Source: Flavipsychrobacter sp. (GTDB lineage Bacteria > Bacteroidota > Bacteroidia > Chitinophagales > Chitinophagaceae). Taken from it: DNA of 63,122 bases. Location of the stretch: the NCBI GenBank assembly GCA_021155965.1, contig JAJNBJ010000022.1:1-63122 (forward strand). Reading direction: 5' to 3'. Made by a program: the position numbers and the translations under genes. Within the stretch, counting starts at the first letter, position 1, and every line of letters starts with the position of its first letter. The notes under the pieces are model-generated. The model was not told the origin of the DNA, did no database searches, and saw nothing but the letters and a program-made list of their open reading frames with translations. Positions 49,464-52,849 of the stretch are shown piece after piece.

Positions 49464-50117
49464 TTACTCTTGCCAGAGGAAGGGGAACAATATCACCCCT
49501 AGAAGGATGACCAGCACATCCAGCGCTATAAGGATAAGCGCTAGGCCCCACCAGCCGGGCATGTAGAAAGGGGCTATGGCCTTTACAGCCAGTTTGCTGA
49601 GTATCATGAGCACTGGTGTGACCAGCGGGAAACCCAGTATGGCCATAAGCGCAGAATTTTGCTGCGCCCGGGCTGCTATTGCCGACAGGAAGGTGAACAC
49701 AGCCGATAAACTGAGCCCGCCTATGAGCGAGAGGGCCACGAAAAGCCCACCCTGCGCCAAAGGCCAGCCAAGCAATATATAATAGAGCAGCAGGCTTACC
49801 AGGCTCATCACCGCCATAAGCAGTATACTGTAGAGCATTTTTGCCAGCAAAAAGGTGACTGGTTTTACCAGTGTATGATAATACCGGAAGCGATGAGGGT
49901 GCTCTTGCAGGAAGCTTTTGGCAACCGAATTCACCGCTACAAATAGCATGGTGAGCCAGAACAGGGCGTTCCAGGTGCTGGCCTCGGGCTGGCCGCTCAT
50001 CATGCGGACCACAAAGACCGTGGCACCTACATAGAGCAACACACCAAAGAGGGTATGCTTCTGCCGCCACTCCATGAGCAGGTCTTTCTTTACAAGCGAT
50101 ATAAACGGTGATGCCAT
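49464..50117 (-). CDS. ccmB: Haem exporter subunit CcmB-like permease
   Basis: A 217-residue six-helix membrane protein. The start at 50117 (MASPFISLVKKDLLMEWRQKHTLFGVLLYV) is the family N-terminus; the frame is open to 50249 but the extra residues do not fit. Helices follow (ALFWLTMLFVAVNSVAKSFLQE, ILLMAVMSLVSLLLYYILLGW, LSLIGGLSLSAVFTFLSAIA and a C-terminal WGLALILIALDVLVILLGVILFPFLW). CcmB is the permease of the cytochrome c maturation ABC complex. The neighbouring ccmA/ccmC genes are not in the window. Confidence 0.85.
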   Translation of the reverse strand: MASPFISLVKKDLLMEWRQKHTLFGVLLYVGATVFVVRMMSGQPEASTWNALFWLTMLFVAVNSVAKSFLQEHPHRFRYYHTLVKPVTFLLAKMLYSILLMAVMSLVSLLLYYILLGWPLAQGGLFVALSLIGGLSLSAVFTFLSAIAARAQQNSALMAILGFPLVTPVLMILSKLAVKAIAPFYMPGWWGLALILIALDVLVILLGVILFPFLWQE

Positions 50118-50197
50118 ATTAGAAACAGGGTTCAAAAGTACTCTGAACCTTGGAATTTGGGCTTTGTTTATTGGGATTTTTAAAATGTTCACTTTGT

Positions 50198-50229
50198 TTT
50201 GGTTTTTTAATTCGGCACTTCTATATTTG
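50198..50229 (+). promoter_or_regulatory. Promoter of tRNA-Gly
   Basis: TTTG (50198-50201), 20 nt, TATATTTG (50222-50229): a full Bacteroidota promoter 42 nt before the tRNA. Confidence 0.7.
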
Positions 50230-50271
50230 CACTCCCGAAGCGCAAGCATAGGGGATAGTTCTTAGTCATAA

Positions 50272-50344
<73 letters not shown>

Positions 50345-50348
50345 CTGG

Positions 50349-50380: not shown

Positions 50381-50480
50381 GTTTTATACCTTCCCGGGAA
50401 TGTTTACCACCGGGAAAGGATAATGCCCTGGTGGCGGAATAGGTAGACGCGCAGGACTTAGTTCTTTGAATTTCTGGAAA

Positions 50481-50488
50481 TATATTTG
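50481..50488 (+). promoter_or_regulatory. -7 element inside the intron, before the HNH ORF
   Basis: TATATTTG, a perfect TAnnTTTG match, 18 nt before the HNH ATG at 50507; TTAG lies 19 nt upstream (50458-50461). The endonuclease can probably be transcribed separately from the tRNA precursor. Confidence 0.5.
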
Positions 50489-50506
50489 TAATATGAGCTA
50501 ATATAT

Positions 50507-51022
50507 ATGGCTAAATACAAATTTGATACTGCTTTTGAAACGCATTTTGTTGCAACCTGTAATTCGGCCGTAAGTATGAGCCAGGCAGCTATCCAACTCG
50601 GGATGAACTATAAAACTCTCTGTTGGCATGCTAAAAGGCTTGGTTGTTTTAAGGCTAATCAGGCAGGTAAGGGTCATTCAAAGCCTTTTAAAGGAGAAGT
50701 TACTCCAATTGAAAGGATTTTTGATGGCACACACAAAACTTACCAAAGCCATAAGCTAAAGAAACGCTTGTTGTTGGAGGGATTTAAAAAACATCAGTGT
50801 GAACAGTGCAATTTATCGGAGTGGATGAATGTCCCGATCCCGCTTGAATTGCATCATGCTGACGGCAACAGGTATCATAATGCGCTTGAAAATTTAGTAT
50901 TGCTTTGTCCTAACTGCCATGCGCTTACAGACACTTATAGAGCCAGAAACATCAGAAATTTGAGTGCCCGGGTTGAAATGCCCGGAGTAGAACCGCTTAA
51001 ATTCGGGGAAGCCTTCCAGTAA
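50507..51022 (+). CDS. Intron-encoded HNH homing endonuclease
   Basis: A 171-residue protein encoded in the P1 loop of the tRNA-Leu intron. An N-terminal helix-turn-helix-like part (SMSQAAIQLGMNYKTLCWHAKRLG, about 23-46) is followed by an HNH domain: zinc pair C98/C101, H116-H117 of ELHHADGN, N129 of NALENL, and C134/C137/H138 of CPNCH. This is the phage-type HNH fold that makes a nick or double-strand break and can drive intron homing. Its last dozen codons overlap P3 and P4 of the ribozyme core, so the stop codon lies within structured RNA. Start and stop are clear. Confidence 0.9.
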   Translation: MAKYKFDTAFETHFVATCNSAVSMSQAAIQLGMNYKTLCWHAKRLGCFKANQAGKGHSKPFKGEVTPIERIFDGTHKTYQSHKLKKRLLLEGFKKHQCEQCNLSEWMNVPIPLELHHADGNRYHNALENLVLLCPNCHALTDTYRARNIRNLSARVEMPGVEPLKFGEAFQ

Positions 51023-51090
51023 CGCTGATGGTAATCCCGAGCCAAGTCCCGGTAATTCCGGGAAAGGTGTAGAGACTTAACAGGCGGCAC

Positions 51091-52719
51091 CTACGTTCCG
51101 TAAGGAATATGGTGAAGAGAAAGTCCAGACCACAAAACGATGAGGCAACGAAAGTTGTAGTGGTACGAAAATCCTGTTTGCCGCAAGGCGAGTACGGGTT
51201 CGATTCCCGTCTGGGGCACTTGTTGCAAATCTGCAACAAAATAAGAGGGTTGCTCTACCAAGAGCAGCCCTTTTTCCTTTAGTGGCAAGGCTTTAAGCCC
51301 AAATACAGGCAGTAAATAAGGTGTTCGATAAAATCCATCTGCATAGTATAGTTTGCTATCGAACTCCAATTCAATGAAAGATTTTTTATTATGTATGTCT
51401 GCTTCAGAGAACAAGTAATGCATATTTGTAAGCTTATGGAGGTTTTCTGAATATTTAGCCCAAGCATCGGCAAGGGGGGCTTTTAGATCATCCAAAGCAT
51501 TTAACGTCGAAAATCGTTCGTTTTCATACCTCACTTTCCATTTATCGTATGTTCCCTGATCTATGGCATTGCTGATATACTTTTCCTCCAGTTCCTCAAT
51601 TTTCGCCTCTAATTGGTTCAATTCCCTTTGTTTTTCAGAGACCCTATTATTCCGCCCCTTCATTTCCTCCTCAATTAGGTCTATTACCTCATTCTGCAAT
51701 TGTTCAATATAATGTTCAGGCAGGGATAATTCCCCAAGTAGATCGTCAAACTGCTTATGAAGGGTAATTGCCGAATGATTTTCTTTACAAGTAGGGCAGA
51801 TGTAGTACCAATAGTATTTCGATTTCCCCTTACTATTTCCCGCCGTCATATACCTGCCACATTCGCAATGTAGTGAACCCCTTAGCGGAACTTCCTCATT
51901 ATTATGCCTGTTATTCTGCTTTCCGCTCAATTTGTCTTGTACTGCCCAATATGTTGCTTTGTCTATAATTGCCTGATGTTTTCCCTCGATCAGTTGCTCT
52001 GGTTCATCATAATAGGAGGGCACTTTAATCATTCCGGCGTAGGTGGGGTTTTCCAATATTCGCCTTATCGCACTATTGCCGCCCCGGTTTAACCCATCGG
52101 GTTTTAATATCCTGCTAATATCCTCCATATTCATCCCGGAAAGGAATAGCTTAAATGCTTGTTGCACTATGTAGGCATTCTTTTCATCCGGTACAATTAT
52201 CGGTTTTTTATCATCGTCCCTTGCATTCTTATACCCAAAAGGTGCTGCATGCAAGTATCTCCCGCTCTTTGCACCTTGATGCATACCAAAGGCTGTCCTT
52301 TCCCGTATATAGTTTAGTTCCGTATTAGCGTTTAATAATAGCTGGGTGCGCATGTAAAAGAACATAGGGCTTTTAGGGTGAACGCCGATATTCTCAAGCA
52401 GGGAAAGAACAACAATCTTATACTTTTTTTCCAGCTTATCTATCATTGCCAGTGCCTCAGTAAGATTGCGGCTAAATCTGTCATACTTATAAACTATTAG
52501 ATAGTCTATCTCCTTATGTCGTTGCTGGATAAAGGTTTCAAGCTGTTGCCAGCTAATCCTGTCAAAGTTTTTGGCACTTTGCCCATCATCCTCAAAAATT
52601 TCAAGAAGCTGGATTTCTTGTTTAGCGCAATAATCGGTTATTGCGTTGCGCTGTCCATCTAAGGAATAATTAGACTGCTCTTTTGTACTGATGCGGGAAT
52701 AGCCGATTGCTTTTTTCAT
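51091..52719 (-). CDS. Large serine recombinase (site-specific integrase)
   Basis: A 542-residue recombinase. The resolvase domain (about 1-150) has the catalytic Ser in AIGYSRIST, the QxxxI region SLDGQRNAITDYC, and YDRFSRNL with the active Arg residues. The recombinase domain (about 155-250) and the zinc ribbon (LHCECGRY...ICPTC, about 290-330) follow, then a long coiled coil (about 345-400). The start at 52719 is an ATG; the frame is open to 52740. The final 50 or so residues after 'VFGLKALP' are encoded antisense to the tRNA terminator, the tRNA-Leu 3' exon and part of the intron, with no stop before 51091. It overlaps a 59-aa ORF at its start. Confidence 0.9.
   Translation of the reverse strand: MKKAIGYSRISTKEQSNYSLDGQRNAITDYCAKQEIQLLEIFEDDGQSAKNFDRISWQQLETFIQQRHKEIDYLIVYKYDRFSRNLTEALAMIDKLEKKYKIVVLSLLENIGVHPKSPMFFYMRTQLLLNANTELNYIRERTAFGMHQGAKSGRYLHAAPFGYKNARDDDKKPIIVPDEKNAYIVQQAFKLFLSGMNMEDISRILKPDGLNRGGNSAIRRILENPTYAGMIKVPSYYDEPEQLIEGKHQAIIDKATYWAVQDKLSGKQNNRHNNEEVPLRGSLHCECGRYMTAGNSKGKSKYYWYYICPTCKENHSAITLHKQFDDLLGELSLPEHYIEQLQNEVIDLIEEEMKGRNNRVSEKQRELNQLEAKIEELEEKYISNAIDQGTYDKWKVRYENERFSTLNALDDLKAPLADAWAKYSENLHKLTNMHYLFSEADIHNKKSFIELEFDSKLYYADGFYRTPYLLPVFGLKALPLKEKGLLLVEQPSYFVADLQQVPQTGIEPVLALRQTGFSYHYNFRCLIVLWSGLSLHHIPYGT
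51247..51275 (+). terminator. Terminator of tRNA-Leu
   Basis: GGGTTGCTCT / AGAGCAGCCC stem (one G-T pair), ACCA loop, then T5, 29 bp after the tRNA. It lies antisense to the end of the serine recombinase frame. Confidence 0.8.
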
Positions 52720-52849
52720 TACTGAATATTGAGGATACAAAAATGTTCGCTAGTAACTGCAAAAACTCTTTCTCCTCTGGCGTAATTAACGGCACACTGT
52801 TTTGCGAAGTTTTGATAGGTTTTAAAGGGATTATTTCTGCTTTTTCCAT
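52670..52849 (-). CDS. Small ORF overlapping the serine recombinase start, 59 aa
   Basis: ATG at 52849, TAA at 52670-52672, in another frame from the recombinase, which starts at 52719 inside it. The predicted peptide is MEKAEIIPLKPIKTSQNSVP then a helical LITPEEKEFLQLLANIFVSS and IFSNEKSNRLFPHQYKRAV. The helix 'TPEEKEFLQLLANIFV' looks like a designed short domain rather than random DNA. The overlap of 50 bases favours translational coupling with the recombinase. No family recognised. Confidence 0.55.
   Translation of the reverse strand: MEKAEIIPLKPIKTSQNSVPLITPEEKEFLQLLANIFVSSIFSNEKSNRLFPHQYKRAV

Follow-up and report, generated by a model that had tools for sequence, protein, structure and literature searches.

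Group I introns have been described in bacterial fMet and Ile2 tRNAs (PMC8450103), and putative ones split tRNA-Leu(TAA) and tRNA-Arg(TCT) in the sulfur bacteria Beggiatoa and Thiomargarita (PMC4853749). The acquisition of endonucleases by introns has so far been argued from a few phage genes: the excerpted text of PMC3984707 reports collaborative homing, which pairs a free-standing endonuclease with an intron lacking an open reading frame (ORF), in two phage systems, and offers two models for composite introns, with a legend noting that ORFs may overlap the core. Here we describe a tRNA-Leu(UAA) gene of Flavipsychrobacter sp. (contig JAJNBJ010000022.1) that lies in two pieces at positions 50425-51218, + strand, of the window, by which we mean the whole stretch of 63,122 nt analysed. 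The insert is a group I intron that carries an ORF for a putative HNH endonuclease. We propose, with a probability of about 85%, that this intron is able to self-splice, as predicted, that it occupies the U34|A35 junction of the only tRNA-Leu(UAA) gene found in its genome, and that the HNH protein encoded in its P1 extension likely drives homing into uninterrupted tRNA-Leu genes.

As an intron, the element is real and well defined and adds another member to a known group I kind; its new aspects are the family of endonucleases, the variety of positions that this family takes up around a single tRNA, and anticodon arms that have been rewritten. The cyanobacterial tRNA-Leu(UAA) intron interrupts the same tRNA at the same place of the anticodon loop, and cyanobacterial copies are matched by our own covariance model, R1; the intron of the window differs in its HNH ORF in P1 and in its nearest relatives, which come from Bacteroidota and a phage catalogue. 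The endonuclease of another bacterial tRNA intron reportedly targets the anticodon region as well; in that case the tRNA is a different one and the enzyme belongs to a class other than HNH. HegA of phages T5 and BF23, annotated F-TflIV, is a homologue of the HNH protein of the window (46% over 102 aligned residues, E 4.5e-31; 53% over 144 residues with the HNH protein of intron L168), but this phage form is free-standing, lies by tRNA-Ile2 in T5 and has an extra C-terminal region. The Beggiatoa and Thiomargarita introns resemble ours in splitting tRNA-Leu(UAA) outside cyanobacteria, whereas no endonuclease is mentioned for them in the excerpted text (PMC4853749). The arrangement of collaborative homing recurs at seven loci where a free HNH gene lies by an ORF-less intron at the same site (L148, L164, L167, L172, L174, L178 and L186; the intron is missing at L179). 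The difference from the systems excerpted in PMC3984707 is that here the host is a tRNA gene, that bacterial chromosomes as well as phages are involved, and that free, flanking and intron-borne forms belong to one family. SegB, another free-standing endonuclease, is linked in the excerpt with phage tRNAs of no particular isotype (PMC13096335). The word stem Bacteroid does not occur in the excerpt of PMC3984707, neither Bacteroid nor HNH occurs in that of PMC11835236, and searches of open-licence PMC papers listed none whose title or opening lines of abstract describe the HNH family or a Bacteroidota tRNA-Leu(UAA) intron.

The exons, when joined, form an 86-nt tRNA-Leu(UAA). ARAGORN finds tRNA-Leu(taa) with a 708-nt intron when introns are allowed and misses the gene when run plainly. 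The initial annotation, made from the letters alone, had recognised a tRNA-Leu(UAA) split by a group I intron, and this is confirmed by the split gene, by a match to the Rfam model and by the empty site in congeners; its sizes need a correction, the tRNA being 86 nt and not 85, the insert 708 nt and not 709. Placements at U34|A35 and A35|A36 fit the empty site equally, owing to a one-base slip. The former, already chosen in that annotation, is preferred because of the group I rule, which demands a 5'-splice-site U paired to G and a terminal G: U50459 forms a wobble with G50962, and G51167 ends the intron. The features of the locus are as follows, all on the + strand.

50425..50459, +: tRNA-Leu(UAA) 5' exon, ending at U34 (ARAGORN, BLAST, congener comparison)
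50456..50461, +: P1 5' strand, spanning the splice site, partner 50960-50965, with U50459·G50962 at the splice site (duplex fold)
50460..51167, +: group I intron, 708 nt, with terminal G (omega-G) (Rfam, ARAGORN, congener comparison, model R1)
50465..50477, +: P1 extension 5' strand, 50471-50477 pairing with 50943-50949 and 50465-50469 with 50952-50956 (duplex fold)
50507..51022, +: putative HNH endonuclease ORF, 171 aa, in the P1 extension (Pfam below cut-off, alignment)
50960..50965, +: P1 3' strand, internal guide sequence (IGS) (duplex fold)
50968..50985, +: P2 hairpin (15-intron alignment, covariation)
50993..50998, +: P3 5' strand, partner 51082-51087 (6 of 6 pairs change on both sides)
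51003..51040, +: P4-P5 arm (15-intron alignment, covariation)
51042..51067, +: P6 arm (15-intron alignment, covariation)
51074..51078, +: P7 5' strand, the G-binding site, partner 51121-51125 (15-intron alignment, covariation)
51088..51114, +: P8 hairpin (15-intron alignment, covariation)
51145..51158, +: P9 hairpin with GAAA cap (covarying pairs, fold)
51168..51218, +: tRNA-Leu(UAA) 3' exon, CCA not encoded (ARAGORN, BLAST, congener comparison)
50272..50345, +: tRNA-Gly(GCC), upstream neighbour (ARAGORN; also in congeners and in genus g114)

The empty site was sought by searching 35 genomes of the genus, our own and 34 congeners, with the joined 86-nt tRNA (BLAST). An uninterrupted full-length gene with 92-100% identity was present in 25 of the 34 congeners, one of which (G171) has a contiguous gene identical to the exon join of the window. 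The remaining nine gave a weaker match, a partial one at a contig end or none, and are evidence neither way. Our genome is the only one of the 35 with the gene in two pieces. The intron is thus present in one genome and precisely missing from the 25 relatives with a full-length gene, as mobile introns are recognised, and a recent gain is supported. BLAST of the spliced tRNA against the genome itself (4.25 Mb, 50 contigs, 99.78% complete) returned the two halves and a Leu(CAA) gene at 81%, and no second Leu(UAA) gene. The single-copy claim leans on this search because the Rfam tRNA list of the genome (34 genes) is not exhaustive, containing for example no Thr or Trp gene. The other leucine tRNAs of the genome have anticodons TAG, CAA, CAG and GAG. 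The host belongs to the Bacteroidota, as stated before: a nearby MetRS gene is 78-80% identical to Flavipsychrobacter and Nemorincola proteins.

A ribozyme core is found by Rfam Intron_gpI (RF00028) at 50917-51160, with 53.2 bits for a cut-off of 50 and E 1.1e-10, this covariance match being the single one in the assembly. R1 scores the intron at 154 bits, the window being one of the 15 source sequences of that model. We then considered covariation in 15 related, hand-chosen introns, for which helices P2 to P8 were named and the P3/P7 pseudoknot was included. Over 34 helix pairs (510 cells), 95.9% of the cells pair and both sides change in 23 of the 34 pairs; when partners are slid by 1-3 columns, pairing falls to 31-49%. 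None of 500 shuffles reached the covariation score, while 17 of them reached the count of further pair types and none the other measures. P1 is lengthened by UUUCUGG/CCAGAAA, and the ORF sits in the loop of this extension. Most of the core as first annotated (P1 wobble, P3, P6, P7, P8, terminal G) stands, with a reservation for P9: the GAAA-capped hairpin is kept and covaries in a six-intron alignment and forms in one fold, whereas the minimum-energy fold of the isolated stretch pairs otherwise. The intron may be of subtype IC3, and it is predicted to self-splice.

The intron has an endonuclease ORF of its own, as had been claimed, and its last ~20 codons double as the IGS, P2 and the 5' strands of P3, P4 and P5. 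Across an alignment of 64 HNH sequences, residues C98, C101, N129, C134, C137 and H138 never vary and H117 hardly does. The AlphaFold model has a mean predicted local distance difference test (pLDDT) of 82.7; confidence is low from about residue 151 (block means 37-49), that is, over the residues whose codons double as core. Among 568 homologues found, the best of the 120 listed is 87% identical over the full length, and Spirosoma, Fibrella, Tellurirhabdus and Flavisolibacter are the named sources among the matches listed. A regular-expression search of the tails of these 120, which missed at least one core-tail member (P0035), found the same core-encoded tail in 61, a stop just after the IGS in 8, tails that read as a P7-P8 translation, with the ORF in P6, in 5, tails that read as the 5' end of tRNA-Leu in 6, and neither kind in 40.

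Related introns do occur in other Bacteroidota. Rfam introns were detected in 8 of 394 genomes of the family of the window, 4 of them above the cut-off, and include ORF-less tRNA-Leu(UAA) introns behind tRNA-Gly in G366 and G370. R1 matches 18 of 395 genomes of the class, with 21 matches in total: 8 lie in Leu(UAA) by ARAGORN and L191 is taken as a ninth from its place beside tRNA-Gly, the other tRNAs being labelled Leu(CAA), Met(CAU), Gln(CUG) and Arg(UCU), labels that are uncertain for split genes. To have called such an intron unexpected in this phylum was therefore too strong. Among these R1 loci only the genome of the window and G590, of the same order, have the HNH ORF; the tRNA-Leu(UAA) intron of G590 measures 725 nt by ARAGORN. 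Further introns were observed along the way: a second R1 intron of G590 (L207), in a further leucine tRNA gene to which ARAGORN gives the label CAA, R1 introns in genes labelled tRNA-Gln(CUG) and tRNA-Arg(UCU) in genomes of the class (L202-L206, L208), and, in the family of the window, group I introns beside a tmRNA match (L032, G127) and within 23S rRNA (L036, G113). Elsewhere R1 matches 20 of 115 genomes in the class of a Rhodopila locus.

We built an intron tree from 86 supplied sources, of which 84 matches passed 1e-9; introns with an ORF in P6 were not included. The window groups with L109, L195 and L196 (99/77, a branch without a star), and these together with L157 and L150 form a starred set of Bacteroidota and phage-catalogue introns (95/90). 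Bacteroidota introns do not form one clade (p-AU of the approximately unbiased test, 8e-5), and a single clade of HNH-bearing introns is also rejected (p-AU 0.0002). L109 was considered as a virus-borne nearest relative and set aside: it looks like a provirus edge and is probably host DNA, since its intron-bearing tRNA marks the end of the contig and the 359-aa ORF behind it looks, by eye, like a tyrosine integrase. The HNH protein of the window is sister to that of L109 (100/100, HNH tree).

Three other accounts of the locus were weighed against the proposed homing intron. Acquisition of the old cyanobacterial and plastid tRNA-Leu(UAA) lineage from a cyanobacterium would explain the identity of gene and position, and R1 does match 38 of 117 genomes of the cyanobacterial phylum (that of a Lyngbya locus); however, no split gene occurs in the 34 congeners, 25 of which are uninterrupted, and 19 cyanobacterial introns (15 labelled Leu(UAA), 4 Ser(AGA)) cluster away from the Bacteroidota and phage-catalogue introns that the window joins (84/86, not starred). 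Such a transfer is not supported by the best tree, and forcing the window together with the 19 costs 37.6 log units (p-AU 0.057, short of formal rejection); we consider it improbable. The description as cyanobacteria-like thus holds for the insertion site, while common descent is not favoured. It is also unlikely, though a little less so, that the HNH protein is a mere passenger or relic and that the intron no longer moves. The ORF is dispensable, judging from the ORF-less sister introns L195 and L196, the core of the latter being 82% identical to that of the window, but in our intron its frame is intact for 171 codons and preserves the catalytic and zinc residues, it has the 87% identical full-length homologue, and the insertion is seen in a single genome of the genus. 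Least credible of all is a pseudogene, with another tRNA reading UUA codons: the incomplete Rfam tRNA list leaves room for one, yet the exons are identical to the gene of a congener, the ribozyme is full and the 99.8% complete assembly yields no second copy by BLAST.

The homing reading gains from the company that the HNH family keeps. A single-sequence search of 395 genomes of the phylum (E 1e-10) found the protein in three, those of the window, G590 and G578. In G578 the gene stands free, flanked by tRNA-Gly(GCC) on one side and an uninterrupted tRNA-Leu(UAA) on the other. Counting short hits, matches occur in 61 of the 204 genomes of that genome's family, all of them in genus g114, and the gene lies between tRNA-Gly and an intact tRNA-Leu(UAA) in 31 of the 31 loci examined there (its frame is broken in L096), none of which has an R1 intron match. 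For viral contigs we kept the best 80 of 375 matching stretches, 56 of them distinct once 24 exact duplicates of the HNH DNA were dropped. Nine of these 56 genes lie in P1, one is antisense within the P1 loop of a tRNA-Leu(UAA) intron (L146), nine lie in P6 and eight adjoin a tRNA-Leu with an ORF-less intron; 12 are upstream and 11 downstream on the tRNA-Leu strand, four are on the opposite strand and two were not placed (L123, L128). By ARAGORN labels, 43 of the 56 are in or within 120 nt of tRNA-Leu(UAA), a count that reading the exons by eye lifts to 54 (the 11 added are eight split genes that ARAGORN labels differently, two genes with inserts and one at a contig end). Of the 245 plain tRNAs in the viral loci, 24 are Leu(UAA), and all 23 loci that have such a plain copy have one no more than 120 nt from the HNH gene; among other isotypes the largest number near the gene is 3 of 24 loci, for Met, and the largest share 1 of 4, for Ile(GAU). 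Apart from T5 and BF23, all nine phage records examined, chosen among 40 listed matches out of 205, have the HNH gene next to tRNA-Leu, five times Leu(UAA) and four times Leu(UAG); two of the nine, KP13-7 and Muenster, are close kin. The family is thus associated with tRNA-Leu genes in four arrangements: free by an intact tRNA-Leu, free by an intron-bearing tRNA-Leu, in the P1 loop and in the P6 loop. Because the phage neighbours include Leu(UAG), its specificity may be for tRNA-Leu more broadly.

In a tree of 73 HNH proteins, for which 15 of the 31 g114 loci were used, the state changes between in-intron and outside at least nine times on the best tree; starred branches alone force three changes for the P1 class and two for the P6 class. 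The flanking HNH genes of L178, with an intron, and of L179, without, are sisters (100/98). These patterns suggest that introns with HNH arose several times through the entry of a free HNH gene into a resident intron. Remnants around free HNH genes are a hint only: tRNA-Leu-like 5' halves were noticed on the far side of the gene in L114, L115 and L125 by regular expression and in L128 by eye, and none was found by regular expression in 15 g114 loci. Some viral-catalogue tRNA-Leu genes beside a free HNH gene also have 20-67 nt anticodon-loop inserts (L110, L141, L158 and L187, the last resembling the 3' half of another tRNA); their interpretation as repair scars was not relied on, given that ARAGORN yields chance short introns in AT-rich loci.

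The target of the family was approached in genus g114, where the tRNA-Leu(UAA) of 113 of 120 genomes was read; the HNH gene is absent from 57 of them, full in 47 and fragmentary in 9. Five genomes with short HNH matches (G843, G852, G862, G889, G898) and two without a tRNA match were left out. tRNA-Gly and tRNA-Leu are 514-621 nt apart in the 47 full-gene genomes, as against 57-241 nt in those gene-free genomes for which both were read. The 17-nt anticodon arm equals the consensus in 56 of 57 gene-free genomes and in only 18 of 47 full-gene ones (Fisher 2e-12); the nine fragment genomes, excluded from this test, have the consensus three times and other arms six times. The other 29 full-gene genomes carry ten other arms with six other stems, all fully paired, while the T-stem letters are identical in 113 of 113 genomes and the anticodon arm is the sole tRNA region nearly fixed in gene-free genomes. 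Since the arm is nearly fixed in gene-free genomes and replaced by re-paired variants in most gene-bearing ones, and coincides with the insertion site of the intron, these data point to it as the putative cleavage target, and we read the variants as candidate immunity of gene-bearing genomes at the cleavage site.

Shared ancestry or exchange of the whole tRNA locus, rather than escape from cleavage, could also have produced the altered arms, a possibility that we regard as doubtful while giving it more weight than any of the alternatives above. It would fit the greater variability of other tRNA parts in gene-bearing genomes: the commonest gene-free sequence is found in 30/57 gene-free versus 13/47 gene-bearing genomes for the D-arm, 28/57 versus 9/47 for the variable region and 41/57 versus 22/47 for the T-arm with its loop, the acceptor strands being no more diverse with the gene. 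Such extra diversity of D-arm, variable region and T-loop is what would be expected if the whole tRNA allele were co-converted. On the other hand, no other region is almost fixed in gene-free genomes as the arm is, and on a quick tree of upstream DNA (88 of 104 genomes, one very long branch), where gene presence changes 20 times, 18 of them forced by starred branches, about 12 of 18 independent pairs link the arm variant to the gene, none links it to the absence of the gene and 6 show no difference (median p 0.0005, range 0.0001-0.004).

The above data on tRNA parts weigh against our reading of the family, and so do several others. In 18 of the 47 full-gene genomes the supposed target arm is still the ordinary one, perhaps because the gene is inactive in them or because its insertion is enough by itself. 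The g114 proteins sit in another main branch of the HNH tree than that of the window (G578 is 41% identical), so that their target is applied to the window by homology only. T5 HegA adjoins tRNA-Ile2 and not tRNA-Leu, no tRNA is annotated within 900 nt of BF23 HegA, and the share of Leu(UAG) among the phage records departs from strict Leu(UAA). Finally, the HNH assignment of the protein is tentative: Pfam HNH models match the ORF only below their cut-offs (HNH_3 with E 0.0074), a sequence search of the PDB returned no relative, and the best Foldseek match in the PDB, EcoKMcrA, is weak (E 0.017). All things considered, we still lean towards the view that the HNH family is a parasite specialised on the anticodon arm of tRNA-Leu, free or intronic, which would have entered P1 and P6 repeatedly in Bacteroidota and phages and whose hosts would have rewritten the stem as immunity.

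In the mechanism that we propose for the window, the precursor would splice to a working tRNA, the HNH protein would cut the anticodon arm of uninterrupted tRNA-Leu DNA, and repair on the intron-bearing copy would move the intron, which would shield its own copy by splitting the target. The composite intron would have formed when a free-standing HNH gene that already targeted the site entered a resident intron. If true, this would provide a complete natural series for the formation of a composite mobile intron, in a tRNA gene; free gene, gene by an ORF-less intron and gene in an intron coexist at one short, well-known target, which makes the route directly testable. If the arm pattern reflects immunity, a selfish DNA element would shape the sequence of an essential tRNA.

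The surroundings of the gene were compared as well. In the window tRNA-Leu(UAA) begins 79 nt past tRNA-Gly(GCC). Comparison with 20 congener loci gave matches on the tRNA-Gly side in all 20 and for the ORF at 49464-50249 in 19, while the downstream side beyond 51228 gave no match to the window. A serine recombinase gene (Pfam Resolvase and Recombinase; 51091-52740, - strand) ends against tRNA-Leu, its open frame continuing without a stop through the 3' exon into the intron, and an integrated element probably lies next to the tRNA gene. In g114, five of six probes find the DNA upstream of tRNA-Gly shared by about 90 of 109 genomes and the sixth by 16, and the DNA downstream of tRNA-Leu, shared by 1-17 of 109, is a variable hotspot. 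Partial 3' copies of tRNA-Leu(UAA), about bases 27-86, were also noticed in congeners (L069 in G414, L070 in G410), with partial matches in G401 and G097. Those of G414 and G410 are separated from the intact gene by 4-5 kb containing a 402-aa ORF whose product looks like a tyrosine recombinase; an integration site would show such a pattern, and the intron would split that site.

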